Of a stretch of 64,000 nt of DNA, positions 1,652 through 22,769 are shown piece by piece. Source of the stretch: Persicimonas caeni (lineage in GTDB: Bacteria > Myxococcota_A > Bradymonadia > Bradymonadales > Bradymonadaceae); NCBI RefSeq assembly GCF_006517175.1, contig NZ_CP041186.1, positions 5,731,074 to 5,795,073 of the forward strand. Reading direction: 5' to 3'. Under the pieces are notes generated by a model that was not told where the DNA came from, searched no databases, and saw only the letters and a list, made by a program, of their open reading frames with translations. Within the stretch, counting starts at the first letter, position 1, and every line of letters starts with the position of its first letter. A program made the translations under genes and the position numbers.

Positions 1652-3733
1652 TTAGCGACTCGTTCCTTGCTCTCTGAGGGCTTCAAGACGCTGGAGTTCA
1701 GCTTGATCGGCGGTGATGACCCATATCTTGCGCTTCTGAGCGGCTCGCTTTTCGGCATTGACCTTCTGGCTTCGGATCCAGTTGTAGAGTGACGCTCGCG
1801 GCATCTGGAGTCTTTCGGCCAGTTGGTCGGTCGTCCACTCATCCTCGGCTAAATTGAGGAGGTCGGTCGGCTTGCTCGACTGTGCGCGCTTCAGCCCGAG
1901 GTTGTAGCGCAATGATGTGAGCGCTGCCCGCGTAAATGGGCGGGCTTCGGCGGTTCGATACCCCTGCTCGTTTAGCCGCTCACTTATCTGGGCATCGCTT
2001 TTGCCGGCTTCGAAAAGCCGGCTGATCCTATCGACAAGCTCGTCGTAGTAGCTCAATTGCTTCCAGCTCTGCACCGGCCGTTGCACGATGGCCGCTGTGC
2101 GGTCACCTCCGGCCCAGTGGACCTCGACGCGGAGTCGCTCGGTTTCGCCTTCGACCTGCGCGTGAATTTCGTCGACGATCGCGCGCACGATTTCTTGGCG
2201 CTCTTTGGGGAGCGTCTCCTCGGCATGCCACAGGACCGGCAGATCTTGGGCCAGACGGCGTATTTCTTCGGCTTGTTCGCCAGGAAGCGGCGTCTGCCAC
2301 TCGGCTTTTTGGCGGGCGTAGTCGCGTCGGATTCGTTCTTCTTCCTCCAGCGCCTCTTGCCAGCGATCTTCGAGGGTCTGGGCCACCAGACGGTTTCTCG
2401 GGTCGACCGCGTCATACTGCTCGAATGCTCGTTGGGCGCGATAGCGCGCCCGCTCGAGCTTTTGCTCCCACAGCTCTCTTAGCTTTTCTCTTTCCTTCTC
2501 GGCCTCCTCGATAACCCTCAAACTCATTTCGATGGCTGCTGGCTCCAGAGCCTGCAACACAAGCGTTTCGATCAGCTCGTCGAGCGACATCCCACTGAAG
2601 GAGCGACAGCCATCTTTGGCCTTCGTCTTGTAGTTTTCGCATTCGTAGCGCCACGTTTGTGGGTCTTTATAGTGCAGGCTCATCCGCCAGCCGCACCCGC
2701 CACAAAGGACCAGTCCTCCCAGCAGCGCTTGGCCATTTTGCGCATATCCCTTCACGGCCGGTTTGTTGTCCTCGAGTTGTTCCACGTTTCTCTCGTAGGT
2801 CTTCCAGTCGATGTAGGCGGGGTGATTGGCTTTGAGCAACACGAGCCACTGCCCCTGGTCGACTCGGACCCGGCCTGGCTCGCCTCGACTCCCGAACCCG
2901 GCGTTCGAGGGCCGCTGGCGCCGCCCGTAGACATAGGCCCCCGCATAAATCGGGTGCCGCAAAAGGTTGCTCACCGCCGAGTTCGTCGCCTTGTGCCACT
3001 CAAGCGGGCCCAGGTGGGCCAGATGCCCGAAGCTGTCGCGACGATGCGGAAGCTTGATGTCGTGCGCCTCGAGATATCGACACACACCACCGATGGTGCG
3101 CCGCCTCTCGAACACCTCGAAGATCAGTTCGATGACCCGGCGCACCTGGGCGTCGGGGTCTTTGATGATCTCCTCGTCGACACTCCATACGTAACCACGC
3201 GGCACATCAAAGACGAGCTCGCCCCGCTTGGCCTTGGCCAGCTTGCCGTCCTCGAGTCGCTGCTTCATGATGTGAAGCTCTGTCTCCGACATCGTCGCTT
3301 TGACTCCCAATAGCATGCGGTCATTGGGGTCGCAGGGCTCGTAGACCACGTCATTTTCGGCAATAAGCGTATCGTACTGGGCACACAGTTCCAGGAGACG
3401 ATACCAGTCCAGGCAGCACCGGGCGTAGCGAGACAACTCCAGGGCCAGAATCAGCCCGACATGCCCACAACGCACCTCCTGCATGAGTTTCTGGAGACCT
3501 TGCCTTCCCTGGATGCTTGCTCCGCTTGTGCCCAGATCGTCGTCGATGGTCAAAATCTGATCATCGCTCCATCCCCACCGACGAGCGCGTTTGGCGAGCG
3601 CATACTGTCGACGCGTCGACTCTTGATGCTCCTCGAGCTGCTGGAGAGTTGATTGCCGTACATAGACCACCACCAGCTGGTTGACATGTCGCTCGGTGAT
3701 CTTGGGTGGGCGCAGAATCGCGGACTCCGTCAT
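1652..3733 (-). CDS. Large serine site-specific recombinase (resolvase/invertase family)
   Basis: A 693-residue recombinase. Residues 20-160 are the resolvase catalytic domain, with YVRQST supplying the presumed nucleophilic Ser and the usual DDDLGTSG and LSRYAR motifs. A 'Recombinase' domain follows near 180-290, then a zinc-ribbon-like segment (CGGCGW, CENYK, CRSF near 335-385), a long coiled coil (about 400-500) and C-terminal helix-turn-helix-like segments (QLAERLQMPRASLYNW). Such enzymes integrate or excise mobile DNA at short att sites. A GGAGG site lies just before ATG 3733. The adjacent IS makes this a mobile island, but no att repeats were found. Length and domain order are intact, so it is probably functional. 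Confidence 0.9.
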   Translation of the reverse strand: MTESAILRPPKITERHVNQLVVVYVRQSTLQQLEEHQESTRRQYALAKRARRWGWSDDQILTIDDDLGTSGASIQGRQGLQKLMQEVRCGHVGLILALELSRYARCCLDWYRLLELCAQYDTLIAENDVVYEPCDPNDRMLLGVKATMSETELHIMKQRLEDGKLAKAKRGELVFDVPRGYVWSVDEEIIKDPDAQVRRVIELIFEVFERRRTIGGVCRYLEAHDIKLPHRRDSFGHLAHLGPLEWHKATNSAVSNLLRHPIYAGAYVYGRRQRPSNAGFGSRGEPGRVRVDQGQWLVLLKANHPAYIDWKTYERNVEQLEDNKPAVKGYAQNGQALLGGLVLCGGCGWRMSLHYKDPQTWRYECENYKTKAKDGCRSFSGMSLDELIETLVLQALEPAAIEMSLRVIEEAEKEREKLRELWEQKLERARYRAQRAFEQYDAVDPRNRLVAQTLEDRWQEALEEEERIRRDYARQKAEWQTPLPGEQAEEIRRLAQDLPVLWHAEETLPKERQEIVRAIVDEIHAQVEGETERLRVEVHWAGGDRTAAIVQRPVQSWKQLSYYDELVDRISRLFEAGKSDAQISERLNEQGYRTAEARPFTRAALTSLRYNLGLKRAQSSKPTDLLNLAEDEWTTDQLAERLQMPRASLYNWIRSQKVNAEKRAAQKRKIWVITADQAELQRLEALREQGTSR

Positions 3734-3866
3734 TTCGACCTCCGTGTCGATTTGTCGAAGTCATCTGCCGCCTGGCTATCGCCCGAAGCTGGTCGACCAG
3801 TACAGCCTTGCGTCTGTCCGTCAGCCTTTTCCAGATACTCCTCGGCGCCTTCGGCTGCTTGTGCAT
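3561..3866 (-). CDS. Small ORF overlapping the recombinase start (101 aa, hypothetical)
   Basis: ATG 3866 has a good ribosome site (GGAGG, 4-nt spacer). The predicted product begins MHKQPKAPRSIWKRLTDRRK, a basic helical segment. Small proteins with a W-x-L plus helix pattern are often seen just upstream of recombinases of this class; that is a recollection, not a search result. The frame runs 173 bp into the recombinase gene in another register. A competing frame (3730-3981) ends in an ATGA overlap with the recombinase start but has a less protein-like composition. Either could be the real leader gene, or there may be a frameshift. Function unknown. Confidence 0.42.
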   Translation of the reverse strand: MHKQPKAPRSIWKRLTDRRKAVLVDQLRAIARRQMTSTNRHGGRNDGVRDSAPTQDHRATCQPAGGGLCTAINSPAARGASRVDASTVCARQTRSSVGMER

Positions 3867-4046
3867 GATGCCTCCGTGCCAGTTGAACGAGTTTCTGAAG
3901 TGCTTGCCGTCCAAGTTTGGCAGGAGATGGCCGCTTTGATAACAGCCGATCGTAAGTGGTCTTACCAAGTACCCGTCCCACCGGGCTTGTCCCGGTGGAC
4001 GGAAAGCCTGAAAGCTAGATGCTAGATTTCGTATCATCTGAGCCAA

Positions 4047-5509
4047 GAAAGAGTGACGGCGTCCCTGCGGGCTAAGCTGCGGACGCCGTCGATGCCTTTT
4101 CCCTCACGAATGAGGTCGATATGGCACAGATGAGAATAAGCAGAAACGCCGCTACACCCAAGGGCTTTTTACGTCGTATTTCGGATGCCCGCTTTGAGAG
4201 GGTCGACGATCCGCGAGCCCAGCAGTGGGTTGTCCACCCGCTGCACGCGCTTCTCAAGCTGGGAGCACTCGCCTTTTCGACGCACGCCCGCTCGGTGCGG
4301 GCCGTGGAGGTCAGAAGCGAGCAGCTTCGGCCCACAGTGCGCGCCCAAGTCGGGCTTAAAGAGCGGGTGTCGGACAACGCCTTTGGTCTGGTTTTGCCCC
4401 GCATCAAATGGCCCCAGCTTCGCCGATGCCTCCATCGGCAGGTCAAAGCCGAGTGGCGCCGAGGCCGTCTTGTACCGGTGCGCCTGCAAAAAAGCACCGC
4501 CGCGATCGACGGCAAGCATGTGGCCACCGTCCCCGAAAAGCGCCTGCGCGCGCTCGTCACCCAGCGCACAAGCCTCGATGGCGCCACGTTGGCCCCCGCC
4601 GAGCTTCGCCAGGTGCTGTCGACTCAGTTTCCCCACGTCCAGCTCCAGGAGAGCAGCCACGGCAAGCTGTGCGGCCTTATCCGCGTCCATCGCACTACAT
4701 TGATCTCCTCGAGTGCGGCGGTCGCGCTGGATCAGTGGCCGATCGCCGGTCAGACAAATGAATGGGGCGCCATCGAGCTGACCGTCTCGGCGCTCATGTC
4801 GGCCTACGGACGCACCAAACTCATTGAGCGGGTCACGCTCGACGCCGGTAACGCCACCCCCGAGGTCGCCCAGATGCTACAGGGGCGCGACATTGATTAT
4901 TTGATGTCGCTCAAAGTCGGCCAGGGCAGGCTCTGGGAGCATGCCGTCGACACTCTCGGTGATAGAGAAGGTCGTCAGGCTGACCATCGGGACGTGGTCG
5001 AAGAGCGTGGAAAGACGATCTGCTATAGCGTCTGGCGCGAAAAGCTCGACGGGGAGTACGGCTTCGAGGGTGCCAGGCAGGTGGTGCGCATCGAGCGGGT
5101 GGTCGCCGGCGACGAGGACGCCGAGGTAGGAAACCGCTACTTCGTCAGCTCCGAGTCCCCAGATGAGCTTGGGGCGAAAGAGGCGCTCGCACTCGCCCGA
5201 GCCCACTGGCGCTGCGAGAATGAAGGCCACTGGACCGCCGATGCCATCTTCGATGAAGACGCGCGTCGAACGCCGTGGACGATGCATCCCGATGGGGTGC
5301 TCGTGGCGGGGCTTTTGCGCTCCATTGCCATCAATATTCTGGCGGTGCTGCGTGCGCTGACTCGCAACAAATCCGCAGAGAAGTGGCACAAGCCAACCTG
5401 GAAGATGGTTGTCGAGCAGGCGCTTATGACGCTGTGCATTCCCATACTGGACACCACCGAGTTTGACGCCTTCGAGGCTTGAGCCCGCAGCCGACGCCGT
5501 CACTCTTTC
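4047..5509 (+). mobile_element. Complete ISAs1-like insertion sequence with terminal inverted repeats
   Basis: The left end (4047-4063) and right end (5493-5509) are perfect 17-bp inverted repeats, GAAAGAGTGACGGCGTC. The match continues inward with one gap (CCTGCGGGCT at 4064-4073 against GGCTGCGGGCT), giving roughly 27-bp terminal repeats. One transposase gene fills the interior. The 8 bases flanking each end do not match, so no target-site duplication is evident. This suggests an old insertion, later rearrangement, or a boundary a few bases off. Confidence 0.85.
4121..5482 (+). CDS. DDE transposase, ISAs1/IS4-like
   Basis: A 453-residue transposase. The N-terminal part (about 20-100) resembles the DDE_Tnp_1-associated domain (DPRAQQWVVHPLHALLKLGAL). 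Likely catalytic residues are Asp in AAIDGKHVA (near 130), Asp in TLDAGNA (near 240) and Glu in the CENEGHW stretch (near 370), which is followed by the ISAs1-type IFDEDARR. The ORF is intact between the inverted repeats at 4047 and 5509. It is longer than the roughly 370 residues usual for ISAs1, so subfamily placement is uncertain. Confidence 0.88.
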   Translation: MAQMRISRNAATPKGFLRRISDARFERVDDPRAQQWVVHPLHALLKLGALAFSTHARSVRAVEVRSEQLRPTVRAQVGLKERVSDNAFGLVLPRIKWPQLRRCLHRQVKAEWRRGRLVPVRLQKSTAAIDGKHVATVPEKRLRALVTQRTSLDGATLAPAELRQVLSTQFPHVQLQESSHGKLCGLIRVHRTTLISSSAAVALDQWPIAGQTNEWGAIELTVSALMSAYGRTKLIERVTLDAGNATPEVAQMLQGRDIDYLMSLKVGQGRLWEHAVDTLGDREGRQADHRDVVEERGKTICYSVWREKLDGEYGFEGARQVVRIERVVAGDEDAEVGNRYFVSSESPDELGAKEALALARAHWRCENEGHWTADAIFDEDARRTPWTMHPDGVLVAGLLRSIAINILAVLRALTRNKSAEKWHKPTWKMVVEQALMTLCIPILDTTEFDAFEA

Positions 5510-5783
5510 GAAAGACAACCCGGGGCGAAAACGCCCCGAGACCAGACCTGGAAGGTCTGCCTCCAAAAAAGCGCCCGCATCGCTGGGGAAAGGGGGAGGT
5601 ATGCCATTGCCGGGGCGTTGAGTCACCCCGGCGGTCTCGAACGGCCTCGTCACCCCTGGACGGGCGATCGCTGATCGAACCTGGGTGAGGGGCTCCACCG
5701 CGGATGCGGCGTTTGGAGGGGGGAGGAACAGCGTTCGACCTGCCGAGCGTCGGAGCTCGGCAGGTCGAAGAGGGCGTCACGCG
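5510..5783. other. Intergenic spacer after the insertion sequence; no gene recognised
   Basis: The stretch holds several small hairpins (CGGGGCG-AAAA-CGCCCCG at about 5520-5537, AGACC/GGTCT at about 5552) and the strong hairpin listed separately. A 69-codon plus-strand frame starting inside the IS end has no protein-like features. I see no gene. Confidence 0.6.
5734..5769. terminator. Perfect 15-bp stem hairpin downstream of the YtxH-like gene
   Basis: TTCGACCTGCCGAGC (5734-5748) pairs exactly with GCTCGGCAGGTCGAA (5755-5769) around a 6-base loop. It lies 14 bp beyond the last gene of the minus-strand cluster, as expected for a terminator or 3' stabiliser. No run of U follows. Confidence 0.6.
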
Positions 5784-6137
5784 TTACTCAGCTTGCGGAG
5801 TGGCCTGTGTCGACTCTTGCTGGGTCTCGGCGCCCAGCGATTCGGTCGCGCCGCGGCTGCGAAGCTGCTCGTAGCTCTCGTAGCCACGCTCGCGAAGCTG
5901 GCCGATCTGGCTGCCCAGGTCGCTGCGAATCTCTTCACCGCGCTTGGGGGCGAAGAGCACGCCCAGAGCCGCGCCGACGGCCATACCTGCTCCAAAGATA
6001 CCCAGTGCAGGGAGGATGACCTCCATGGTGCTGCGCTTTTGCTCCAGACCCATGCGGTCGAGCAGCGAGTTCACTGAGTTATCGTACGAGCTGCGTGCGG
6101 AGTCGTTGAAAGTCTGCAGGCTCTTTTTCCAGTCCAT
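5784..6137 (-). CDS. YtxH-like membrane-associated protein
   Basis: About 117 residues. A glycine-rich hydrophobic segment (LGIFGAGMAVGAALGVLFAP) is followed by KRGEEIRSDL, the YtxH / gas-vesicle-like signature, and a Gln/Ser-rich tail. I chose ATG 6137 because AGGAG sits six bases before it. An in-frame ATG at 6191 (AAGGA site) would add 18 residues. YtxH proteins are small stress-associated membrane proteins of unclear function. It is the last gene of a same-strand group of similar one-helix proteins. Confidence 0.72.
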   Translation of the reverse strand: MDWKKSLQTFNDSARSSYDNSVNSLLDRMGLEQKRSTMEVILPALGIFGAGMAVGAALGVLFAPKRGEEIRSDLGSQIGQLRERGYESYEQLRSRGATESLGAETQQESTQATPQAE

Positions 6138-6263
6138 ATCTTCTCCTTTGGCCCTCAAGAGTTCGATGAGTTGCCCGGCTGACAAGTCCATTTTGGTCCT
6201 TAATTAGTAGCTATTCAAGTTCGAGCTCGAGCCCGCGCTGGTGCGCAGGGCTCGAGGGTGGGG

Positions 6264-6596
6264 CTATTGGCCGCTCTCGTAGGGTCCCTCGGAGGGATGC
6301 ACATTGGCGGTCAGATTCTTGATCTGCGAGCTGGCCAGCGGAATGAGCATGCCCTTCATTGCGACCTTGAGGATCCGCTTGGTAAACGGGCTGAAGAGCC
6401 CCCCGCCGAGCACGTAGCCCACGCCGGCGGCCGCGGCCAGCACCGCGTACGGATTCTCCTGGTAATACTCGCCGATCGACGCCTTGTTTCGCATGTTGTC
6501 GTAGAGCTGCTGGACGTCGTCGAAGACCTGCTTCGAGTCGTTCATCAGCGTGCGACTGTCGTCGATGAGCCGTTGTGCGTCGTTGTCAGCTGCCAT
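6264..6596 (-). CDS. Small DUF883-like one-helix membrane protein
   Basis: 110 residues. An amphipathic coiled-coil-like N-terminus (about 1-42) is followed by YQENPYAVLAAAAGVGYVLGG, which resembles the 'xxPWxAvgiAagvGfllG' membrane motif of ElaB/YqjD (DUF883) proteins, and a C-terminal soluble tail. AGGAG precedes ATG 6596. In enterobacteria DUF883 proteins are inner-membrane, ribosome-associated and induced in stationary phase. Applying that role here is inference. Confidence 0.7.
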   Translation of the reverse strand: MAADNDAQRLIDDSRTLMNDSKQVFDDVQQLYDNMRNKASIGEYYQENPYAVLAAAAGVGYVLGGGLFSPFTKRILKVAMKGMLIPLASSQIKNLTANVHPSEGPYESGQ

Positions 6597-6615
6597 GATT
6601 CGTTGCTCCTGATGC

Positions 6616-6954
6616 TCAAGTCAACCAGCGCCGCGAGGCGAGGCGTCCGACGAAATAGCCGATGCCGACGGCGCCGACCAGGCAGACCACCGGGTTCTCC
6701 CGGATGAACTGCACCGCCGAGTCGTTGGCGTGGCGAAGCTGGACACGCGCATCGTCGTAGCGCTGTTCGAGCTCGTGATAGCCCTCTTCGATGCGCTCTT
6801 GGACTTCACGGGCCCGGTCGCGAATCTCCTCGGTGCGTGCGGCGTGCTCGCCACCATGAGGTTGGGCGGTTTGAGTCTGGGCGCCGCCAGGCGTGTGGCC
6901 TGCTGTCGACGACTCCTCGGGCGAGCCGGGAGTCTTGGGAGTGTCCGTGCTCAT
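6616..6954 (-). CDS. DUF883/ElaB-like tail-anchored protein
   Basis: 112 residues. A Pro/Thr/Gln-rich N-terminus (1-40) is followed by a charged coiled coil (about 42-82) and a C-terminal helix with FIRENPVVCLVGAVGIGYFV, closest to the DUF883 tail anchor. It ends in a basic ASRRWLT. GAGGAT precedes ATG 6954. A perfect minus-strand TATAAT at 7062-7057 lies about 100 bp upstream. It groups with the neighbouring holin-like and YtxH-like genes. Confidence 0.72.
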   Translation of the reverse strand: MSTDTPKTPGSPEESSTAGHTPGGAQTQTAQPHGGEHAARTEEIRDRAREVQERIEEGYHELEQRYDDARVQLRHANDSAVQFIRENPVVCLVGAVGIGYFVGRLASRRWLT

Positions 6955-7056
6955 CTGTCGATCCTCGCGTCTGACTTATGAATGTTAGCTCGTGCGAAAA
7001 AGGCGCTTGTCACCCACCAACCGTCCGTGGGCGGTGCTGAGGGCGACTCGACGCCG

Positions 7057-7062
7057 ATTATA
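7057..7062 (-). promoter_or_regulatory. Possible -10 box for the 6954-5784 genes
   Basis: A consensus TATAAT on the minus strand lies 103 bp upstream of ATG 6954. No good -35 is found at 16-18 bp, so an activator-dependent promoter or chance is possible. Confidence 0.3.
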
Positions 7063-7138
7063 CCCTAGCGAGTGCTCCCATAATACATGGGGGCGCCCCC
7101 CTAGAAGTCAAGAGCGATCGTCGTCGCCCCTGGCGCCA

Positions 7139-7432
7139 CTAGCGCAGCCCCAGATAAAACCCGACCGCAAAGCCGATGCCCACCGCTTGCCAGGGGTGAT
7201 CGCTCACCCAGGCCTTCCAGTCGAGCGTCTCTTGGACGCTGACTTGGATGTCGTCGAGGCTGTCCGAGATCTGGCGGCGCGCCTCGTCGATGGAGGCGCG
7301 AATCTCGGCGGTGCGCTCGTCGAAGTGTTTGTCGGGCGCCCGCGCCTGGGTCAGCTCGGTGGAAGTTCTTCTTGTGAGAGCTGTTTCGGTTTCGTGCCGT
7401 TTCGGCTCTTCTCCCCGATCTCGCGTAGCCAT
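7139..7432 (-). CDS. DUF3618/DUF883-like membrane protein
   Basis: 97 residues from ATG 7432, preceded by GAGGAC at good spacing. A charged N-terminus leads to TAEIRASIDEARRQISDSL, the pattern of DUF3618 proteins. It ends with DHPWQAVGIGFAVGFYLGLR, a typical DUF883 tail anchor. The start overlaps the holin-like gene by 82 bp in another frame, so the two are probably co-translated. This parallels the enterobacterial yqjD-yqjE pair. Confidence 0.72.
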   Translation of the reverse strand: MATRDRGEEPKRHETETALTRRTSTELTQARAPDKHFDERTAEIRASIDEARRQISDSLDDIQVSVQETLDWKAWVSDHPWQAVGIGFAVGFYLGLR

Positions 7433-7863
7433 CTTTTGTCCTCGTTTAGTTCGTCGTTGGTCTGCGCCAGATCGACCGGCTTCTCGTCGCGCAACTGTTT
7501 GCCGAAGTAGGCGGTCAGCCCGCCGGCGACGGCCAGATGGACCACCGCGATGGCGGCCGCGGTGATAAAGGCCGCCAGAGCACCGCCCAGCCAGGCGGCC
7601 AGCAAGATCCCGGCGCCCAGCAGCGTGACATAGCCGATCAATCCGATGACCGCACACACGGCGATGATCGCCACGCGCTTGCCGGTGGTCGTCACGTCCT
7701 GCTTGAGTTCGTAACGCGCCAGCTCCAGGTGCTGTTTGACCAGCGTCGACAGCCCGTCGGTCAGTCGCTCGAAGGCGGGCTTGAGCCCGTTGATCCCGTT
7801 GGACGACGACGGTCTGCGCCTGCCGTTGGTCGAAGTCGATCTGCGTCGATTGAGTTCACTCAT
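7351..7863 (-). CDS. Phage holin family / YqjE-like membrane protein
   Basis: 170 residues. An Arg/Ser-rich N-terminus (1-25) precedes LVKQHLELARYELKQDV (about 42-58), a hallmark of the Act-Hol-E/YqjE holin superfamily. Two transmembrane helices follow (about 64-88 and 92-118), then a charged tail that encodes the overlap with the next gene. These proteins are not necessarily lytic; YqjE sits beside YqjD in enterobacteria. Context suggests a membrane-organising or stress role. Confidence 0.78.
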   Translation of the reverse strand: MSELNRRRSTSTNGRRRPSSSNGINGLKPAFERLTDGLSTLVKQHLELARYELKQDVTTTGKRVAIIAVCAVIGLIGYVTLLGAGILLAAWLGGALAAFITAAAIAVVHLAVAGGLTAYFGKQLRDEKPVDLAQTNDELNEDKRWLREIGEKSRNGTKPKQLSQEELPPS

Positions 7864-7922
7864 GGTGACACCTGATTGATGGCGTGGCGACTGCGTATGG
7901 GCCGACTCACCTGCGGGCCGAC

Positions 7923-8378
7923 TCAGGGGGTGACTCGCACCGTCGCCAGATCGAGTTCTTGGACACTCTCTCCGGCGTCGGAGACCACCCGAGCACCAAT
8001 ATTGTAATCGCCAGGCTCCAGGTCGACGAACCAGGCGTAGCGTACCCCGGTGATATCGATGGTGTTGCCGGTGGCTTCGAAGCCTTCCTTGGCTGCAAAG
8101 CGTTCATCGCCCTGAAGTTGGATGAATACGTCGGCGTCTTCGATCTGGCCGGCAAAGTCGGCCACCGTCACTTGGATGTCGAAGAATTGGTCGGTCATCC
8201 CCGCAGTCTGGTTCTGCGAGATGGTCGATGGACTCACCGTCACCGAGACGATGTCGGGGAACCCGTCCCCTTCGTCGACACACGACGGCAGCAGCATGAC
8301 CGCGCCGACCAACAATATTGCTGCGAGTACGCCCCCAAAACGGCGATCCCCGAAGCCTACTCCATCCAAACAAGCCAT
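7923..8378 (-). CDS. Predicted lipoprotein with a beta-sandwich domain
   Basis: 151 residues. A signal peptide of about 32 residues ends in LLPSC. The remainder is beta-rich (IVSVTVSPSTISQNQ, WFVDLEPGDYNIGARVVSDAG), like an Ig-like or CARDB-type fold, without a recognised domain. GAGGAG precedes ATG 8378. It lies 59 bp upstream of the holin-like gene on the same strand and may be the first gene of that operon. Function unknown. Confidence 0.7.
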   Translation of the reverse strand: MACLDGVGFGDRRFGGVLAAILLVGAVMLLPSCVDEGDGFPDIVSVTVSPSTISQNQTAGMTDQFFDIQVTVADFAGQIEDADVFIQLQGDERFAAKEGFEATGNTIDITGVRYAWFVDLEPGDYNIGARVVSDAGESVQELDLATVRVTP

Positions 8379-11086: not shown

Positions 11087-12928
11087 TCAGCCAATCAGCT
11101 TGGTGCGAAGCTCTTCAAAATCATCGGCGTCGAGCTGCCACGCCTCGTACGGCACGTCGACCAGCTCGTGGGGGGAGTTCTGCCAGCGCCGGCGGCTCGG
11201 CTCGGGGGCGACCAGGTAGGCCTTGGGGTGGTCGGGGGGATGGAACATCAAGACCCAGCCGTGGATCTCGTCGGCGTCCGACTCCCAGCGGCGAAGCCGG
11301 GTGGCCTCCAATTCGTCGTAGCGCCAGCGCACCGGACCGATGGTCAGGCTGTCGGCGGCGATGACGAGTTCTTCCTCTTGGCGGACGTCGGCGCTGCGCA
11401 AGATCTCGAGGCGCCAGCCCGACCAGCGGGTGCGCCAGCCCAGCGCGAACGGGACCAAAAAGAGCCAGGCGGCGGCCACGGCCAGCGCGGCGGGCATCCA
11501 CGAGTAGTGGGTGACCGGGTTCGTCGAGCCCGGGTCGCCCAGAAGGTGGGCCACGGACAGGGCGGCGACGCCGAGCATAAAGACGATCGGAGGGGCGAGC
11601 ACGGCCACGATTTCGGCCAGGCCGGCCGGGGCGTAGCCTGCGCGGATGCGAAAGCAACTGCTGTGCAGCGCCTCGGCAGTCGGCTCGGCGGCTTCTTCGG
11701 CCGCGGGCCCGTCGCTCTCGGCGGGCTCGTCGATCTCCTCGGTTTTGCGCGCGGTGTCGGTCTCTTCCCAGGCGGTGGAGTCACCGCCGCGGGTGTAGAG
11801 GCGTTGCGACGAGATGTCGGCGGTGGGCGTGGAGCTCGTCTCGGCGAGTTCGGGCTCGGAGTAGTCGCTGACCGAGCTCGACTCGAGCGTGCTCATCTCC
11901 GGCTCGGAGGTCGGCTCTTCGAGGGGGACGATGCCGTGGACGAAGCCCTCGTCGGGGATGGTGTCCGAGGGTTCGTCGACCGCCAGATCGGTCTGGCGGG
12001 TGGTGTCGGGGACGGTGGGTTGGCCGACGTCGTCGATTTCGTCTTCGAGCTCGTCGGCCTCATCGCGGCTCGGCTCGCTGGCTTGTTCGGTGACTTGTTC
12101 GGTGACTTGTTCGGCAACCGGATCTTCTGGGGCGGGGGGCTCTTCTGGAGTAGCGGGCTCGGGGCCGACCGCCTCGAGCCGCTCTTCGAGCGCCGGATTG
12201 GCGCCCACGAGCCCCTGACGGGCGCGCTCGAGCATGCTTTCGAGCTCGTCGAGCCCCGCGCGGGTCATCTCGAGGCCCTCGTCGACCAGGGCGGTGATCG
12301 GAGCCCAGCGGTCTTGGATTTCGGCGGCCTGGTGACGCTGTTCTTCCCACAAGTCGGCGATCTCCTGGCGCGCGGTGCGCCCGCGGCCGATCTCGCCTTC
12401 GCGCACCAGCGCCTCGATGGCGTCGATGTCGCTCTCGCGCTGGGCGTCTAGCTCGGTGAGCACGCCGTCGAGCCAGCGCTCGAGGGTTTTTCGGGCCTCG
12501 CCGGCCACGCGCTCGGCCTCGTCGCGCAGCGCGTCGAGGTAGGCGCGCACCGCGTCGTAATCGTCGACGAGCTCGTCGTGGGATGCCTCGGCGGAGTCGT
12601 CGAGGGCCTGGTCGGCCTGCTCGTCGAACCAACGCTCGACGAATTCCTCCACGCGTCCGGCGCCCAGCGCCACGGTGCGCGGACCCAGGATGCCTTGATT
12701 GTCGACGCTGTCGTCGGAGAAGCGAAACAGCTCGCGCACCCGCACAGGCGAGAGCTTGAGCCACTCGGGCAGAGCGCCCGTGTGCTGGCGCAAGCGCTGC
12801 TCGTAATCGGGCAGCGCATCGAGCAATTCGTTGCGCAGGTCGTCGATGTCTTCATCGAGACCCAGTAGGGCGCGCCGAAGAATCTCGGCGCGTCGTGCAT
12901 CATCTGAGATGTTGCTCGCCACGCTCAC
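11087..12928 (-). CDS. Coiled-coil membrane protein with acidic linker, function unknown
   Basis: 613 residues, GTG start. Residues 1-260 are Glu/Asp/Arg-rich helices with coiled-coil character. Residues 270-430 form a low-complexity acidic linker rich in Glu, Pro, Ser and Thr with QVTEQVTEQ repeats. Two transmembrane helices follow near 455-485 and 500-520. A C-terminal domain of about 95 residues looks like a PH-like or DUF-type beta barrel (VRQEEELVIAADSLTIGPVRW). I recognise no family. The long acidic linker suggests a cytoplasmic tether between the helical region and the membrane. It faces the divergent response regulator across 228 bp with no other gene. Confidence 0.75.
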   Translation of the reverse strand: MSVASNISDDARRAEILRRALLGLDEDIDDLRNELLDALPDYEQRLRQHTGALPEWLKLSPVRVRELFRFSDDSVDNQGILGPRTVALGAGRVEEFVERWFDEQADQALDDSAEASHDELVDDYDAVRAYLDALRDEAERVAGEARKTLERWLDGVLTELDAQRESDIDAIEALVREGEIGRGRTARQEIADLWEEQRHQAAEIQDRWAPITALVDEGLEMTRAGLDELESMLERARQGLVGANPALEERLEAVGPEPATPEEPPAPEDPVAEQVTEQVTEQASEPSRDEADELEDEIDDVGQPTVPDTTRQTDLAVDEPSDTIPDEGFVHGIVPLEEPTSEPEMSTLESSSVSDYSEPELAETSSTPTADISSQRLYTRGGDSTAWEETDTARKTEEIDEPAESDGPAAEEAAEPTAEALHSSCFRIRAGYAPAGLAEIVAVLAPPIVFMLGVAALSVAHLLGDPGSTNPVTHYSWMPAALAVAAAWLFLVPFALGWRTRWSGWRLEILRSADVRQEEELVIAADSLTIGPVRWRYDELEATRLRRWESDADEIHGWVLMFHPPDHPKAYLVAPEPSRRRWQNSPHELVDVPYEAWQLDADDFEELRTKLIG

Positions 12929-13564: not shown

Positions 13565-14749
13565 TCAGTAGAAGTGCGGCGCGGCCATCAGCACCATCAG
13601 GTTGGCGCCGGCGTGGTAGACCACTGAGGCGGCGATGGTGTCGGTGCGCTCGCGCAGCCACCCGAAGACCAGCGACGGAAAGAAGACCGCCGCGCGGGTG
13701 ATCATGATCGCGCCGCCCACCGGAATGAGCACGTGACCGATGGCGAACAACACGCTTGTGAGCGCGTTTGACGCAGAAATCCCCAACACCCGACGTCCGT
13801 CCTCACCTTCGCGTTCGCCGCCGCCGCGCGCCCGGCGTCTGGCGGCGAACGCCTCCGACAGCCTCGTCTGCAGATACCCGCGGTAGAAGAACTCTTCGGG
13901 CAACGCGATAAAGACGAGCTGGGTGAGCACCCACAACACAATCCAGGTGAGCCCGCGGTCGATCTCGACGGTCGAGCCCGCCTCGATCTCGGCGGCGCCC
14001 TGACGGATCACCACCGGCGCGTCGGACTCGGGGCGCCAGGCGTTGATGCGCAACGCGTCGGGCGTGCCGCCGCCGGTGGGCCGGCCAATGCGCACCTCGG
14101 TGCGCTTGTGGGGCTGGGCGAGCTCGATCGTCCACTCGCTGTGTTCGCCGGGGCCGGTCTTGCCCTCGGGGCCTCGCAGCGTGGCCGGGCCGATCACCCG
14201 CGGGCGAAACGCCTCATCGGCCCTGAGCGTCACCTCGACGGGCTCTTGGCCCGCACGCATGCCAATGTGCAGGGTCTGACCCGAGGCCCACGTCCACACG
14301 CCCGATTCATTACCCCATTGGTCCGGCCGCCCGTCGAGCTCGACCGGCCACTTGAAGAAGTTGTCGACCGAGAAGGCGTACTCGCGCTCCATGACCTTCG
14401 TCTCCCACCACCAGTAGCCGACCGCGAAGGGCCCGAGCGTGATGGCGGTGAAGACGAGTCCCCAGATCGCGCCGCGCCCGGCGCGCTCCCAGGTCAGCCC
14501 GAAACGCTCGAAGCTCCAGCCTTTGCGAGTGAGCCACCAGTAAGGCAGGCCCACGAAGACCGCGGCGACGAGCGCGTACAGGTTCTGGGCGACGATGGGG
14601 ACGGCAGAGGCGACGAGCACGCAGGCCAGCACCAAGAGCAGGGCGCCGACGTAGATCGCGCCGGACTCCTGGAGGATGGGCTTTGCCGCGGCCTGCTCGT
14701 CCTGCCTATCGGTCTGGTGGGGCTGCTTGTCGGTCGGCGAGTCACTCAA
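13565..14749 (-). CDS. CPBP-family intramembrane metalloprotease with extracytoplasmic insert
   Basis: 394 residues. Two transmembrane helices lie near 33-72, another near 93-115, followed by a beta-rich soluble insert of about 140 residues (120-262). The CPBP core then has EEFFYRG (E285/E286), the second-motif His339 in FAIGHVL and His379 in YHAGANL, the conserved metal-site residues. CPBP (Abi/Rce1-like) proteases process CAAX-type or bacteriocin-related substrates, and some relatives (myxosortases) process C-terminal sorting signals. The insert between the N-terminal helices and core is unusual. The start is TTG 14749, overlapping the upstream lipoprotein gene by 8 bp. Confidence 0.82.
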   Translation of the reverse strand: MSDSPTDKQPHQTDRQDEQAAAKPILQESGAIYVGALLLVLACVLVASAVPIVAQNLYALVAAVFVGLPYWWLTRKGWSFERFGLTWERAGRGAIWGLVFTAITLGPFAVGYWWWETKVMEREYAFSVDNFFKWPVELDGRPDQWGNESGVWTWASGQTLHIGMRAGQEPVEVTLRADEAFRPRVIGPATLRGPEGKTGPGEHSEWTIELAQPHKRTEVRIGRPTGGGTPDALRINAWRPESDAPVVIRQGAAEIEAGSTVEIDRGLTWIVLWVLTQLVFIALPEEFFYRGYLQTRLSEAFAARRRARGGGEREGEDGRRVLGISASNALTSVLFAIGHVLIPVGGAIMITRAAVFFPSLVFGWLRERTDTIAASVVYHAGANLMVLMAAPHFY

Positions 14750-15962
14750 GGCCGCTTACCTTTTGGACGGCGCGCACGCTGCGCAAAATGAGGGTGTCTT
14801 CGTAGCTGCGGAGCTCGAGTGTACCGGTGGGCACCTCCCCGTACCAGTTGACCTGGCCGGACTGCGGCTCGAGTTCGTACAGCAAGTTGGGATCGGCTTT
14901 GCGGCGGAGCAACAGGTAGAGCTTGCCGCCGCGGGCGGCCACCGGGGGCTCGTCGTCGCCGACGGTCGCCGACCACAGCAACTCGCCGGTGTCGGCTTTG
15001 GCGGCATAGATCGCCTCGTCGACCTTGAAAAGCACGACGCCCAACTCACCGAACGCGTGTGTCCAGGTGGCGCGGGGGCGCGCTTCGAGCCCGAGCCGCC
15101 AGATGGGCTCGTAGGACTCGAGGTCGAAGGCGGTCATCTGAATCGCGTCTGCCTCGTCCTGCTGGGCTGGCACGAAAAAGAGCCGCTCGCCGTCGGTGGC
15201 GTAGAAGGCCGCGCGCCCGCCGCGGTTGTCGAAGGGGCGGTAGCGCATCTCGACGCCCGAGTAGGGATAGCGGCGCGTCAAGCCGCTCAGGGTCGCCGAG
15301 TTGAGCGCGTTGGCCGCCGGCTGCGGGGCCATGCCCGCCCAGAACTTCATGATGCCGTCCCACTTCGCCTCGCCCGACTCGGCGTCGACGCACGCCGCCT
15401 CCGTGCCCCCCGACCACAACGTGCCCGCGCAGACGAGCCGCGGCAGAATCGGGGCGATGAACGAGCCGCGAAAATTCGCGGTGAAGTTCTTGGCGTTCTC
15501 GGAGCGGTCGAGTCGGTAGTGCCAGTTCAACTCGCCGGAAGGCGCGTACGACACCAGACGCATGTCCCAGCCGGGGCCGTCGGGCGGGGTCGCATAGGCG
15601 ACCAGCCGCGTGCCGTCGTCGAGGACGCGATACGCCTCCGGCTCGCAGCCGGCCAGCTCGAGGGGGCGCTGCTCGTCGTCGCTGAGCGGAAAGCTCTCGG
15701 CGGGCGTGCCGTCGGGCTCGAAGATCTGGTGACAATCGGGGAACTTACGCGCCTCGCTCAACGCGAGCTCTTCGATGGAGTGGCTCCCCGGGTTGGTCAG
15801 GTCGACCGCCTCGGGCGGCTGCCAGGCGTGGGTGGTGACCTCGGGCTTGTCGACCTCGGGCGCCTTCTCCGCCGACTCCCCTTTGTCGCACCCGCTCCAC
15901 ACGGACAACGCGAGGAGCACCAGCGCGAGCTTGGCTGCCTGCTGTGGGACCATGCGCATCAT
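14742..15962 (-). CDS. PQQ-like beta-propeller lipoprotein
   Basis: About 406 residues. The signal peptide ends in LSVWSGC (lipobox). The body has propeller-like blades of alternating 'W-x-Y-x-L ... D-x-x-S-G-E' type (YAPSGELNWHYRL, VDAESGEAKWDG, AKADTGELLWSA, LEPQSGQVNWYG), as in PQQ_2/BamB-like domains, with no catalytic residues evident. ATG 15962 forms an ATGA overlap with the stop of the helicase gene; ATG 15953 has better spacing from GGAAGG and may be used. It lies between and is coupled to the nuclease-helicase and the CPBP protease. Confidence 0.75.
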   Translation of the reverse strand: MMRMVPQQAAKLALVLLALSVWSGCDKGESAEKAPEVDKPEVTTHAWQPPEAVDLTNPGSHSIEELALSEARKFPDCHQIFEPDGTPAESFPLSDDEQRPLELAGCEPEAYRVLDDGTRLVAYATPPDGPGWDMRLVSYAPSGELNWHYRLDRSENAKNFTANFRGSFIAPILPRLVCAGTLWSGGTEAACVDAESGEAKWDGIMKFWAGMAPQPAANALNSATLSGLTRRYPYSGVEMRYRPFDNRGGRAAFYATDGERLFFVPAQQDEADAIQMTAFDLESYEPIWRLGLEARPRATWTHAFGELGVVLFKVDEAIYAAKADTGELLWSATVGDDEPPVAARGGKLYLLLRRKADPNLLYELEPQSGQVNWYGEVPTGTLELRSYEDTLILRSVRAVQKVSGLE

Positions 15963-18900
15963 CCCTTCCATGTGACCACGTGGGTTTGGGGTTGCTCGAT
16001 GAGCCGGCGGTATAGCGGGTTGAGCTCGAGACATGCGCGGCTTCCGAAGACGATGAGTTTTTTGCGGGCGCGGGTCAGCGTGACGTTCAGGCGGCGCTCG
16101 TCGGCCAAGAAGTCGCCGGCGCGCTCGGTCTTCACCAAGCTCACCAGAATGGAGTCGCGCTCGCTTCCCTGGAAGCGCTCGACGGTGTCGACGTCGACGC
16201 CGCCGGCGCGCTTGCCCAGCCGGTCGGCCAGGAGCTGGCGAATCCAGTAGACCTGGGCGCGAAACGGGCTGACGACGCCGATCGACGCCGGCTCGTCGCT
16301 CGACTCGAGCAACGCGGCGACCGTGTCGACGACCGCCTCGGCTTCGAGCTTGTTGTGCCGGGCCTGGTTGTGCGGGGACTGGCCCTCGTGAGCGACGTCG
16401 GCGAAGACGAGCGGGTGGGCCGGGGCGAGCAGCTCACCGGTCGTCTTGGCGAGCGCGCCCGATTCCAGCGCTCCCGGGTCGACCGACAGCATATGCCCGG
16501 CGACCGACTCGTGGGCGCGAAGCTTCTCGTCGTAGAACGCCCCGTTCGAGAACTCCATGATGTCGGCGTGCATGCGGTACTGCTCGTCGAGCATCACGTA
16601 CGGAAGCTTCTCGATGAGCCGCTCGAACAGGCTTCGATCGAGGCCCGCGCAGCCCATCTCCTCGAGCTCCACGCGGCCGCGGTCGTCGAGGAAGTTGGTG
16701 TGCGTCTGCTCGTTTTCCACGATCGGGGGCAACTGGCGGTGGTCGCCCACGAGCACGAAGCGCTCGCCCAGGCTAACCGACGCCAGGGTCATCGGCTCGG
16801 TGATCTGGCCCGCCTCGTCGACGATGGCCACGTCGAAGGGCGTGTCGCCCAACTCGCGTTGCAAAAACTCCATCTCGGCCGACTTCGCGCACCGGTGCGC
16901 GGTGCTGGCGATGACGCTCTTGCCGAGCAGGTCCTCGGCGAGCAGGTCGAGCGAGGCGGTCTGGGCGGCGTAGTCGGCGGTGAAATAGTCGAGCGGGTGG
17001 CGCCCCGACGCCTCCAGGCGGCGCGTCAGGTCGGGGCTTCGAGTGCTGTGGCCCACGCGCACAAAGTCGTCGCAGCCCACGTCGAGCAGCTTGGTCAAAA
17101 TGGTGTCGACGGCGGTGTTGGTAAACGCCGAGACGAGCACGCGCTTGCCGCGGGCGACCAACTCGCGCACCGCGTGGGCGATGACGGTCGTCTTGCCGGT
17201 GCCCGGCGGGCCCTGGATGAGCGCGCCGCCCGGCGCCCACAGCGCTTGGCGCACCGCCGCCTTCTGGCTCGGGTTGAGCGACGCGGCTGCCTCGCCGAGC
17301 GTGTAGCCGTTGTCGACCGCCTTCATCAGCTCTTTGGCGCGCTCGCCGTCGGGCCGGAAGAGCACCTCGATCTTGTCGGGGCTCCCCTTGGCCAGCGTGC
17401 GGTACAGCGCGTGGTGCGCCTGTCGAAAGCCCAGGCGCGCCGGCAGGTCGTCCAAAATCCAGCCGTCCTCGGGCAGCTCGTTGGCGATGCCCGCCCCGCG
17501 CGAGGCGATGGTGATCTGGTCGCCGTCGACCGCCACGACGCGCCCGCGCAGAATATGAGACGTATGGAAGTCGCCCCGGTGGGCGATGAGATAGTCGCCC
17601 GGGCTAAAGATCTGGCCGTGCTCGCCGCTGAAGACCACGTAGCCCGACTCCGAGCCCACGCGCACACGGCGCATGTTGTCGACCGCGGCGTAGTTCTCCT
17701 TGCGCTCGTGCAGCCGCCCGCTGTGCAGCACTTTGCCCAGCTCGGCGGTCGCCGCCCAGCGCTCCATCTCGATGAGCCGCGAGAAATGTTCGTGCCATGT
17801 CCAGGCCCGCGCGACGAGCTCGGGGTCGGAGCCGAGCCACGGCTCGCGGGTGATCGCGTCCCACGGCGAGGCCTCGTCGGACAGCCCCAGGATCGCCGTC
17901 TGCGCCTGGCATCGGTCGCGCCGGAAATTGCACGAGTTCGACCGACACGCCCGCGGGTGCTGCATAAAGAAGGGCACGTCGTACTCGTAGTCGGGGTCGA
18001 CGAAGCTTCGCAGACACGCGATGAGCTCGTTGCGGGCGCGTAGGATGCGCCGCTCGCGCTCGGTATCCTCCATCGGCGCGGCCTGCATGCGCCCCTGCTT
18101 CGAGTACAGCAGGTGGCCGGTGATCGTCAGGCCGCGCTCTTCGGCCAGCCCGTCCCACAAAAACTTGTAGAACCGAACCTGGCTCATGTGCCCGTCCCAG
18201 CTCTTGCCCGACTTCAATTCGACGATCTGCAGGCCCTCGCGGGCGTCCTCGGCGACCAGGTCGACACGTCCCTCGATGCCGTAGCGCGTCGAATAGCGGG
18301 TCACCTCGACGTTGCGGCCGCTCCAGCCCACCCGGTCGGTCTCCGGCGAGTCGTTCGTGCGTGGGGCAGTGAACCGGCGGATATTGTCGAAGTGCTGCCG
18401 GGCGTCTTTGCGAAGCCTGGGCAAATCGGTGTCGCGCAGGCCGGCGGCGAGCATGTCGAGGCGAAGCTCGCGCACGCGGTCTTCGAAGGCGTCCTCGAAG
18501 CCGGGCGGGTCGGGCTCGACGAGGTCGTCGAGTAGGCCGTGGACCAGGTTTCCGAACACCAGCGGGCGGCTCGAGCCCCCGCGGTCACGCTGGTCAACCA
18601 AGAACCGGCTCGGGCACCCCTCGGCCTTGAGCACATCCGACACGCTCATCGGCATATGCGGCTCGAGCACCGGCAGCGTCTTGTCCTGGCTGGTCAAAAA
18701 GCGCTCGCCGGCGGAGTTGGTGATGACGCGCGCGTCGAGCAGGTTGAGCTCGCAGCCATCCCAGACCCACTTGACGCTGTCGAAGACCTCGGGCGCCTGC
18801 TTCTCGTAGAAGAACGCGCCGAGCTGCTCGTCGCCGAGGGACTTGTCGGCGTACATATTCAGGTAGAACTTGATGCCCTGTCCGAACTTCGGGTGCTCGA

Positions 18901-19774
18901 GGCGCTCGATGCCCGAGACCCGCGCGTGCAGCACGGACATGGTGTCAGAGACCGTATTCTCGTGCGAAATCTCGACCGACGGCGCCTCGTGGAACGACTT
19001 CGGCGCCATCGCCGCCAGGAGCTCGGCCACCCGCGCCGGGCGCTTGGCCGGCTCGTCGGCCAGCGCGGCTTCGAGCGCGGGGATCGCAAACGCGGGGATT
19101 CCTGTGAAGTTCGGCCGCGGCATGGCGGCCTGCTCGGCGGGGAGCGCCAGACGCACCAGCAGGCGGGCCAGGCCGTAGATGTCGGTCGCCGGGCTCGGGT
19201 CGCGCTCGTCGAGCGGCCCGCGCATTTCGGCGGCGAGCCAGACATTTTGGCTATCCCCGACCGGCGAGAAGTCCTCGCCGATCCAGCAGCCCGCCTCGAT
19301 GGCCGTGAGCTTCCCACTCGCCTCGTCCATCCACAGCGCCCACGGCACGAGCTGGCCGTGGACCAGCCCCCTTCGGTGCAGCCGCGTGACCGCCTCGGCG
19401 AGCGGGCGCCACAGCTCGAGCGCCTCGGACCAGCTCGGCCGGGCGAAGTCGGATTCGTCGAGCAGCACCCCGCGCGGCTTGGGCGTGGCGACCCACAGCC
19501 CCTCCTCGCCGCGCGTCCAGTAGCTCGGCCCCCACAGCCGAGGGTGATCGAAGCGCGTCACCTGCTCCAAGATCGGCCCGACGGTTAGCATCGAGCGCGC
19601 GTTCGGCAGCCGGCGCACCAGGTACGCCTGCGTGGAGTCGAGGGCGTTGTCGGCCTCGAGAATGGCGCCGGCCTCGAGTTCCCACACCGGTCCGGTGGGC
19701 GCGGTGTAGAGGGCGTCTTGGTCGGCTAGATTTTCGGGCGGTGAGAAGGTCGAGAACATCCGTCCGTGGGGCAA
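15959..19774 (-). CDS. Pseudokinase - RecB/Dna2-like Fe-S nuclease - SF1 helicase fusion
   Basis: 1271 residues. Residues 30-260 follow a protein-kinase fold, but the catalytic loop reads LVHGQLVP instead of HRDLKP, DFG is replaced by EAG, and no beta-3 Lys is evident; this predicts a pseudokinase. Residues 380-630 are a PD-(D/E)XK nuclease: His412 in the GNLVH motif, Asp505 (EGRVDLV), Glu519-x-Lys521 (VELKSGK), with Cys387 plus Cys610/615/622 placed as in Fe-S nucleases of the AddB/Dna2/Cas4 type. Residues 830-1270 form a UPF1/Dna2-like SF1 helicase: GPPGTGKT (855-862), DEAGQ (986-990), DHRQLPP, EQYRM, and VERFQGSERD near the C-terminus. Start ATG 19774; another in-frame ATG is at residue 6. 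It heads a coupled three-gene unit. Confidence 0.9.
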   Translation of the reverse strand: MPHGRMFSTFSPPENLADQDALYTAPTGPVWELEAGAILEADNALDSTQAYLVRRLPNARSMLTVGPILEQVTRFDHPRLWGPSYWTRGEEGLWVATPKPRGVLLDESDFARPSWSEALELWRPLAEAVTRLHRRGLVHGQLVPWALWMDEASGKLTAIEAGCWIGEDFSPVGDSQNVWLAAEMRGPLDERDPSPATDIYGLARLLVRLALPAEQAAMPRPNFTGIPAFAIPALEAALADEPAKRPARVAELLAAMAPKSFHEAPSVEISHENTVSDTMSVLHARVSGIERLEHPKFGQGIKFYLNMYADKSLGDEQLGAFFYEKQAPEVFDSVKWVWDGCELNLLDARVITNSAGERFLTSQDKTLPVLEPHMPMSVSDVLKAEGCPSRFLVDQRDRGGSSRPLVFGNLVHGLLDDLVEPDPPGFEDAFEDRVRELRLDMLAAGLRDTDLPRLRKDARQHFDNIRRFTAPRTNDSPETDRVGWSGRNVEVTRYSTRYGIEGRVDLVAEDAREGLQIVELKSGKSWDGHMSQVRFYKFLWDGLAEERGLTITGHLLYSKQGRMQAAPMEDTERERRILRARNELIACLRSFVDPDYEYDVPFFMQHPRACRSNSCNFRRDRCQAQTAILGLSDEASPWDAITREPWLGSDPELVARAWTWHEHFSRLIEMERWAATAELGKVLHSGRLHERKENYAAVDNMRRVRVGSESGYVVFSGEHGQIFSPGDYLIAHRGDFHTSHILRGRVVAVDGDQITIASRGAGIANELPEDGWILDDLPARLGFRQAHHALYRTLAKGSPDKIEVLFRPDGERAKELMKAVDNGYTLGEAAASLNPSQKAAVRQALWAPGGALIQGPPGTGKTTVIAHAVRELVARGKRVLVSAFTNTAVDTILTKLLDVGCDDFVRVGHSTRSPDLTRRLEASGRHPLDYFTADYAAQTASLDLLAEDLLGKSVIASTAHRCAKSAEMEFLQRELGDTPFDVAIVDEAGQITEPMTLASVSLGERFVLVGDHRQLPPIVENEQTHTNFLDDRGRVELEEMGCAGLDRSLFERLIEKLPYVMLDEQYRMHADIMEFSNGAFYDEKLRAHESVAGHMLSVDPGALESGALAKTTGELLAPAHPLVFADVAHEGQSPHNQARHNKLEAEAVVDTVAALLESSDEPASIGVVSPFRAQVYWIRQLLADRLGKRAGGVDVDTVERFQGSERDSILVSLVKTERAGDFLADERRLNVTLTRARKKLIVFGSRACLELNPLYRRLIEQPQTHVVTWKG

Positions 19775-21491: not shown

Positions 21492-22769
21492 ATGTCACAA
21501 GCTCCGCAAGTCTCCCCACAAATCTACCGGTTGATGTACGTCGGCCGCAGCTCGCTGCAGATCGAGCGCGACTACGGCAAGCGCCTGTCGCGCCTCATTC
21601 GCGAGGGCTTCGAGGTGCACGTGCTCGCCGGCGACGACGGCGGGTTCGCCGACCTCGACGCGCGCGGCGTGGTCTGCAAACCGATCCCCGTGGAGCGAAA
21701 GCTCAACGTCGCCGGGCTTCTGGGGGCGTATTTCATCGTGCAGGCCTACTTCATCGAGGAGAAGCCGGTGTTGGTGCACGCCTTCGACGACGTGCTCGCC
21801 TGGGTGGGCGCGTTCGCCGCGCACCGCGCCCACGTCGACGCGGTCTTTGCCACGGTACATCGCCACGCGTTCGTCGAAGATCCGGTGCGCCTCGAGATCG
21901 ATACGTTCTTGCCGGTGCCGCCCAAGTTTTTCGAGGGGGTGGAGGCGTTTCTGAACAATATCGTCGACGCGCCGGTACGCAACGGGCTGTATCGTGCGTA
22001 CGCTTACCTGGGGGAGATCGTCGACAAGTACTTCGTCATCAACGAGCACGATTTCGGGGCGCTGCAGGACCTCGAGCTCGTCCCGCCCGACAAGCTCGAG
22101 ATGATCATCGGCGGCGACGGGGTCGATCTCGACCGCTTTCCGGTCGACGACGACGATTTTCCCACGATCTCCGAAGCTCGCCGCGAGCTGGGCCTCCCCG
22201 AGCATTGGCGCCACGTGTTCGGCTACGTGGGCCCCTTCAGCCTGCCGCGCGGCGCCACCGACCTGCTCGCGTGCATCGAGCAGGTCGCCCAGACGCACCC
22301 GGCGGCCGGCTGGCTCGTCAATATCGACGGCGGCGTCTCCGACGTGTTGCTCCGCCGGCTCGAGCGCCTCGAAGAGAAGGGCAGGGTGGTGATTCGCCGC
22401 CGAATGGACGACCTGGCGATGGTCTACCGCGCGCTCGACGCGTTCGTGATGCCGAGCTACCGCGAAGGCGCGCCCACCCACCTCATGGAGGCGGCGGCGT
22501 GCGGCGTGGGCGCGATCACCTACAACCTGCCGGCGACCCAGTCGGCCGTCGAGCACGGCCAGACCGGCGAGCTCATCCCGCTCGGTGAGGTCGACGTGCT
22601 CGTCGACTCGCTGCGACGCGCGCTCGACGACCCCACGCGCCTCGAGAATTACGGCCTGCGCTCGCGCACTCGCGCCGTGCGCCGGTTCAACCGCCAGCAC
22701 GTCGAGGACCAAGTCTTTCGCATGTACGACACGGTGCTCGAAGTCAAACTTCACGGAGCCGGACTCTGA
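21492..22769 (+). CDS. GT4-like glycosyltransferase (GT-B fold)
   Basis: 425 residues from ATG 21492. The N-terminal half begins with YVGRSSLQIERDYGKRL and has an HAFDDV segment. The C-terminal half carries glycosyl-transferase-group-1 features: FGYVGPFSLPRGATDLL, VMPSYREGAPTHLMEAAACG (the E-x7-E-like donor-site region) and a terminal helix with VEDQVFRMYDTVL. It probably transfers a nucleotide-activated sugar to a polysaccharide or lipid acceptor. The stop overlaps the next ATG by one base, so the two genes are coupled. No other glycan genes adjoin, so substrate cannot be inferred. Confidence 0.82.
   Translation: MSQAPQVSPQIYRLMYVGRSSLQIERDYGKRLSRLIREGFEVHVLAGDDGGFADLDARGVVCKPIPVERKLNVAGLLGAYFIVQAYFIEEKPVLVHAFDDVLAWVGAFAAHRAHVDAVFATVHRHAFVEDPVRLEIDTFLPVPPKFFEGVEAFLNNIVDAPVRNGLYRAYAYLGEIVDKYFVINEHDFGALQDLELVPPDKLEMIIGGDGVDLDRFPVDDDDFPTISEARRELGLPEHWRHVFGYVGPFSLPRGATDLLACIEQVAQTHPAAGWLVNIDGGVSDVLLRRLERLEEKGRVVIRRRMDDLAMVYRALDAFVMPSYREGAPTHLMEAAACGVGAITYNLPATQSAVEHGQTGELIPLGEVDVLVDSLRRALDDPTRLENYGLRSRTRAVRRFNRQHVEDQVFRMYDTVLEVKLHGAGL

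Follow-up and report, generated by a model that had tools for sequence, protein, structure and literature searches.

A Dna2-type nuclease-helicase with a kinase-derived N-terminal domain in Persicimonas caeni and related Myxococcota

The window analysed here comprises 64,000 nucleotides from the single-contig genome (8,047,206 bases) of Persicimonas caeni (contig NZ_CP041186.1, positions 5,731,074 to 5,795,073) and contains, on its reverse strand, a 1271-codon open reading frame with no internal stops, which is listed with its features and neighbours in Table 1. The start of this gene, PLuB_AAA, is uncertain, as the annotated codon is a TTG and an ATG five codons downstream better matches the starts of several homologues. 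Two genes follow on the same strand, encoding a PQQ-repeat protein that carries a lipoprotein signal and the myxosortase MrtP; a downstream ATG of the PQQ gene overlaps the PLuB_AAA stop codon in the sequence ATGA, and the MrtP gene overlaps the PQQ gene by 8 nt. The PLuB_AAA product matches the NCBIfam family NF040671 (PLuB_AAA) over residues 13-1270 with 2453.6 bits against a curated cut-off of 999 and thus belongs to the same family end to end. The title of that entry, "PLuB system helicase-like protein," mentions neither a kinase nor a nuclease. A literature search for "PLuB system" found no paper, and the name presumably stands for Persicimonas, Lujinxingia, and Bradymonas. NF040672, guessed to be a fourth PLuB family, proved to be an unrelated family with no match in the P. 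caeni genome. The remark in the initial annotation that no described system has this exact order of domains therefore holds only in part: the family is already known and its entry spans the protein, albeit under a minimal, helicase-like name. Beyond that name, the present analysis adds the kinase and its origin, the nuclease, the Dna2 identity, the relatives from two further families that fall below the cut-off of the entry, the stepwise decay of the kinase across families, and the core-like inheritance of the gene.

Table 1. Features of the PLuB_AAA locus, with positions counted from the first letter of the window.
Feature	Positions	Strand	Evidence
PLuB_AAA pseudokinase-nuclease-helicase	15959..19774	(-)	1271 aa from TTG, or 1266 aa from ATG at 19759; ORF and NF040671
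N-terminal pseudokinase domain, residues about 20-260	18995..19717	(-)	AF2 pLDDT 91; PknI Z 21; PknG profile match E=1.9e-10
HGQ replacing catalytic HRD, residues 139-141	19352..19360	(-)	residue table
PD-(D/E)XK nuclease, residues about 340-640 (H412, D505, E519, K521, Q532, Y536)	17855..18757	(-)	PDDEXK_1 E=2.5e-12, Dna2 E=3e-5 (Pfam)
C387, fourth Cys of predicted iron staple	18614-18616	(-)	invariant 21/21
C610, C615, C622 of predicted iron-staple cluster	17909..17947	(-)	invariant 21/21
Middle region between nuclease and helicase, residues about 641-825	17300..17854	(-)	colinear with DNA2, profile alignment
SF1 (UPF1/DNA2-type) helicase, residues about 826-1260	15995..17299	(-)	AAA_11/AAA_12; DNA2 E=2.7e-50 over 825-1254
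Walker A GPPGTGKTT	17186..17212	(-)	residue table
PLuB_PQQ_rpt lipoprotein	14742..16034	(-)	NF040673 610 bits
Myxosortase MrtP (CPBP intramembrane protease)	13565..14749	(-)	NF040674 392 bits

The arrangement first proposed for this gene, in which a kinase fold is followed by a nuclease and an SF1 helicase in one reading frame, is confirmed by Pfam, profile comparisons, structural models, and residue mapping. A Pfam scan of the full-length protein returns PDDEXK_1, Dna2, AAA_11, and AAA_12. Residues were compared in an alignment of 21 homologues, comprising 14 from the family of the window protein (f1), three from f2 (L050-L052), and four from f4 (L053-L056), where f2 to f5 denote the other families of the same class. 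The nuclease residues H412, D505, E519, K521, Q532, and Y536 and the cysteines C387, C610, C615, and C622 are identical in every one of these sequences, as are the helicase residues K861 (Walker A), D986/E987 (Walker B), R1067, and R1235. The intact D/E-x-K site, the Cys cluster, and the complete SF1 helicase described at the outset are thereby borne out. One cysteine precedes the nuclease core and three follow it, as in an iron staple at the residue level, the cluster itself being predicted.

Comparison with Dna2, which the initial annotation had raised, is likewise upheld. A PDB search with the window protein as a single sequence already places DNA2 at the top, and a family profile of the region following the kinase is colinear with mouse DNA2 from the nuclease to the end of the helicase (nearly 900 profile positions, 85-970; E=4e-106). 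A 1200-residue model of the homologue L047 (pLDDT 87, pTM 0.75) finds its best structural matches in the DNA2 entries 5ean, 5eaw, and 5eax (E about 1e-44, TM 0.58-0.66). By sequence and predicted structure, the nuclease-helicase part is a Dna2: as in the DNA2/Bad architecture, a PD-(D/E)XK nuclease and, C-terminal to it, an SF1 helicase share one chain, and the order of nuclease with Cys staple region, middle region, and SF1B helicase is that of the eukaryotic enzyme in the mouse structures, although DNA2 has no kinase domain; the C-terminal cysteines of PLuB_AAA are spaced C-x4-C-x6-C. The RecBCD/AddAB type, with a UvrD-type SF1A helicase and a C-terminal nuclease, does not fit a UPF1/DNA2-type helicase with the nuclease in front. 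A role as a RecBCD replacement was also rejected, given that RecB and RecD are encoded elsewhere in the same genome and end resection consequently does not depend on PLuB_AAA.

DNA2 has so far been seen as essentially eukaryotic and archaeal, with bacterial relatives being rare (PMC7430649). Bad from Geobacillus stearothermophilus, which its authors consider rare and sporadic, is a bacterial DNA2-like protein that contains an Fe-S cluster, cleaves ssDNA endonucleolytically, unwinds DNA as a 5'-3' helicase, and prefers 5' overhangs (PMC7430649). Compared by description only, Bad resembles PLuB_AAA in being a bacterial DNA2-type nuclease-helicase with four cysteines; however, it is described without a kinase, possesses a central domain of its own that is absent from DNA2, and has a methyltransferase neighbour (PMC7430649).

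A Pfam scan of the N-terminal region of the window protein alone gave no kinase match, although Pkinase matches weakly in eight of the 14 f1 members. The assignment of this domain follows from three lines of evidence: a profile of the 14 f1 N-termini retrieves PknG from the PDB (E=1.9e-10) and then many other kinases; an AF2 model built from f1 sequences only is confident (pLDDT 91, pTM 0.88); and homologues match Pfam Pkinase directly (142 bits for L053 of f4 and 57 bits for L050 of f2). A Foldseek search with the model returned kinases throughout the matches listed, including PknI, which gave the best structural alignment (Z 21, rmsd 3.3, 218 residues aligned). By profile and predicted structure, the domain thus has the Hanks-type protein kinase-like fold common to bacterial kinases such as PknI, PknG, and PknB. 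The initial annotation had named in advance two findings that would count against its reading, namely a predicted structure without a kinase fold and homologues without the N-terminal domain; the fold is present, and the domain occurs in all 21 aligned homologues.

The initial statement that the HRD, DFG, and VAIK motifs are replaced also stands after residue mapping. In the alignment of 21 homologues, the VAIK Lys of the window protein is Arg (LVRR), the alphaC Glu is Ile, HRD is HGQ, DFG is EAG, and the catalytic-loop Lys and Asn are Val and Ala; at the three positions that define an active Hanks kinase (VAIK Lys, HRD Asp, and DFG Asp), the protein consequently has R, Q, and E. The structural alphaF Asp is retained, and it and similar structural residues are invariant in the aligned homologues. 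Unlike Hanks-type kinases, all f1 members lack the VAIK Lys, the alphaC Glu, and the HRD Asp.

Across the families, the loss of kinase residues is graded. All four f4 proteins have the glycine loop, VAIK Lys, alphaC Glu, HRD Asp, catalytic-loop Lys and Asn, and DFG; the three f2 proteins have lost the HRD Asp and alphaC Glu and retain most other kinase residues; and the 14 f1 proteins have lost the VAIK Lys, alphaC Glu, HRD Arg and Asp, and catalytic-loop Lys, with DFG retained in some. The Pkinase scores parallel this decay, descending from f4 through f2 to the window protein, which has no match. As the kinase decays while the nuclease-helicase stays fixed, it becomes testable what a pseudokinase does that its parent kinase did, with the same machine as the read-out.

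To trace the origin of the fusion, 90 proteins were placed in a helicase tree. Those with the kinase-nuclease-helicase architecture group in a single clade (99/96; present in 98% of bootstrap trees), which adjoins kinase-less Dna2 proteins of Ktedonobacteria (Chloroflexota) with support of 97/93, and L108 and L120, two kinase-helicase proteins that match MkoA of the Mokosh system end to end, fall elsewhere in the tree. Among the matches listed, kinases have accordingly joined related helicases at least twice, independently, and the kinase-Dna2 fusion has a single origin in this tree, separate from that of MkoA, in a sample from which rarer fusions may be missing. Dna2-type nuclease-helicase proteins also occur in Bacteroidota and other phyla. 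In Chloroflexota, relatives at E<=1e-60 were found in 36 of 301 genomes; the 16 loci tested all encode the nuclease, and a kinase was found on none of their proteins. The Chloroflexota Dna2-type protein L198 (1483-5325) begins with about 400 additional residues that match nothing in Pfam and may represent a further N-terminal fusion onto a bacterial Dna2, and a Dna2-like helicase fragment (L194, G210:C73, 3784-5310; 420 bits) ends at a contig end in a Myxococcota genome outside the class.

Taken with the graded residue loss, this tree invites a scenario that we offer tentatively, at somewhat less than an even chance: in the ancestor of these Myxococcota families, a kinase would have joined a bacterial Dna2 in a single event, placing the nuclease-helicase under phosphorylation-dependent control, and that kinase would then have turned stepwise into a non-catalytic but functional allosteric pseudokinase, with active, half-decayed, and fully non-catalytic stages surviving in relatives on an unchanged DNA-processing machine.

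PLuB_AAA is present in 19 of 21 f1 genomes, 3 of 5 f2 genomes, and all six listed f4 genomes, always as a single locus (which in a few fragmented drafts is broken into two or three contig pieces), and is absent from the listed f3 and f5 genomes. Its protein distances track those of rpoB: the Mantel r is 0.89 over all sequences and 0.88 for f1 alone, values that none of 5000 permutations reached. G003 and G015, the two f1 genomes that lack the gene, branch within f1 in the rpoB tree and have retained MrtP, such that secondary loss is the simplest explanation for its absence. G003 (10 contigs, 93% complete) has no PLuB_AAA match and does have MrtP; hence, the gene is not indispensable. In one bacterial family, the gene for a Dna2-type enzyme is here core-like and passed on vertically. 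The further possibility held against the initial reading, that the protein is a common housekeeping Dna2, applies by half: this is a Dna2 with core-like inheritance, but it is confined to a restricted lineage.

The reading that we regard as probable is that PLuB_AAA is a bacterial Dna2-type nuclease-helicase that belongs to the core-like genome-maintenance machinery of this predatory lineage and whose N-terminal domain, a catalytic kinase in the ancestor, is now a pseudokinase for docking or allosteric control. By homology with DNA2 and Bad, the protein would load on a free 5' ssDNA end or flap, and its SF1B motor would move 5' to 3' on ssDNA, while a nuclease stapled by the predicted Fe-S cluster and placed ahead of the motor would cut the same strand; flap trimming or end resection in replication, repair, or recombination would be the expected outcome. 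The ancestral kinase presumably coupled nuclease-helicase activity to a phosphorylation signal, and the f1 pseudokinase, itself non-catalytic, may govern access to DNA or to partners through docking or allostery. This reading has to contend with the RecB and RecD encoded elsewhere in the genome, with the lack of the gene in G003 and in the listed f3 and f5 genomes, and with the high dN of the pseudokinase described below.

The initial annotation had also considered phage defence, and an anti-phage protein resembling that of Mokosh, in which the kinase or pseudokinase would sense infection and release the helicase-nuclease on phage nucleic acid, is a possible role, albeit one we think unlikely. 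In PADLOC, the helicase part indeed matches MkoA best; in MkoA of Mokosh type I, as in PLuB_AAA, a kinase domain at the N-terminus is joined to a related SF1 helicase; the f4 kinases additionally match the PD-T4-6 and mad6 kinase models; and Bad, with its adjoining methyltransferase in Geobacillus, has been proposed as a possible restriction component (PMC7430649). Nevertheless, the MkoA model (PDLC03920) has its best stretch on the window protein at residues 633-1250 only, with 315 bits, whereas L108 (671 bits) and L120 (581 bits) match it over their full length; the MkoA-type proteins examined, unlike PLuB_AAA, have no PD-(D/E)XK nuclease and belong to a different helicase clade; and a PADLOC search of the ten neighbouring window proteins returned no match, a Mokosh partner gene included. 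Membership in Mokosh was rejected on the combination of model coverage, missing partner, and helicase tree, in which the fusion clade stands beside the kinase-less Chloroflexota proteins. Neither the patchy distribution nor the clustering with defence genes expected of a mobile defence island was observed: in f1 the gene is near-universal, single-copy, congruent with rpoB, and syntenic in a fixed operon, and the neighbours sampled in related families are ordinary metabolic, transport, and cell-wall genes (glycosidase, lytic transglycosylases, MoeA, AMP-binding enzyme, phosphoesterase, and transporter). Enrichment in defence islands, which the initial annotation had listed as a check, thus found no support, nor did the defence reading itself, and the inheritance pattern favours genome maintenance over mobile defence. 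Among the comparison loci, the MkoA-type proteins L108 (4255-7434) and L120 (4193-7330) have a kinase-like N-terminus; that of L108 is weak against kinase profiles, suggesting that the Mokosh kinase may be decayed in some members. Another locus, L192 (G000:C1:4190000-4200000), about 1.5 Mb from the window, encodes a UvrD/AddA-like helicase with an in-frame PD-(D/E)XK match (1823-8306) near an MzaC-like gene (MZA anti-phage; 395 bits, below the family cut-off) and is a possible defence locus.

The kinase-derived domain of f1 could instead be a decaying remnant, a tolerated passenger on a plain Dna2, which appears quite improbable. Its catalytic residues have been lost by degrees and differ between f1 genera, and its dN is the highest among the domains in the f1 pairs tested; for the pair formed by the window protein and L038, the pseudokinase dN/dS of 0.44, obtained with dS near saturation, also fits the slow loss of a dispensable domain. 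In the close trio L039-L041, however, the pseudokinase dN/dS is 0.11-0.17, which indicates purifying selection; the domain is moreover kept in all full-length f1 homologues, its fold is confidently predicted, and its structural residues, such as the alphaF Asp, do not vary.

The operon bears on one further proposal. The PQQ gene adjoins PLuB_AAA in 13 of 13 f1 loci inspected, and MrtP comes next wherever the contig reaches far enough. That PLuB_AAA, the PQQ protein, and MrtP might form one envelope or protein-sorting "PLuB system" served by the nuclease-helicase, for example when these predators take up or process prey DNA, accords with this fixed, overlapping gene order and with the naming of two of the three genes as a system in NCBIfam, yet it is very improbable given that 38 of 39 relatives have MrtP, those lacking PLuB_AAA among them, that the f2 and f4 homologues have neither a PQQ-gene nor an MrtP match next to them, and that the lipoprotein is predicted to be extracytoplasmic and the nuclease-helicase cytoplasmic. 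With MrtP beside PLuB_AAA only in f1, the operon placement looks derived. Three genes without assigned function elsewhere in the window (11087-12928, 21495-22754, and 31588-33738) have homologues near PLuB_AAA in several f1 genomes and mark a conserved chromosomal neighbourhood.
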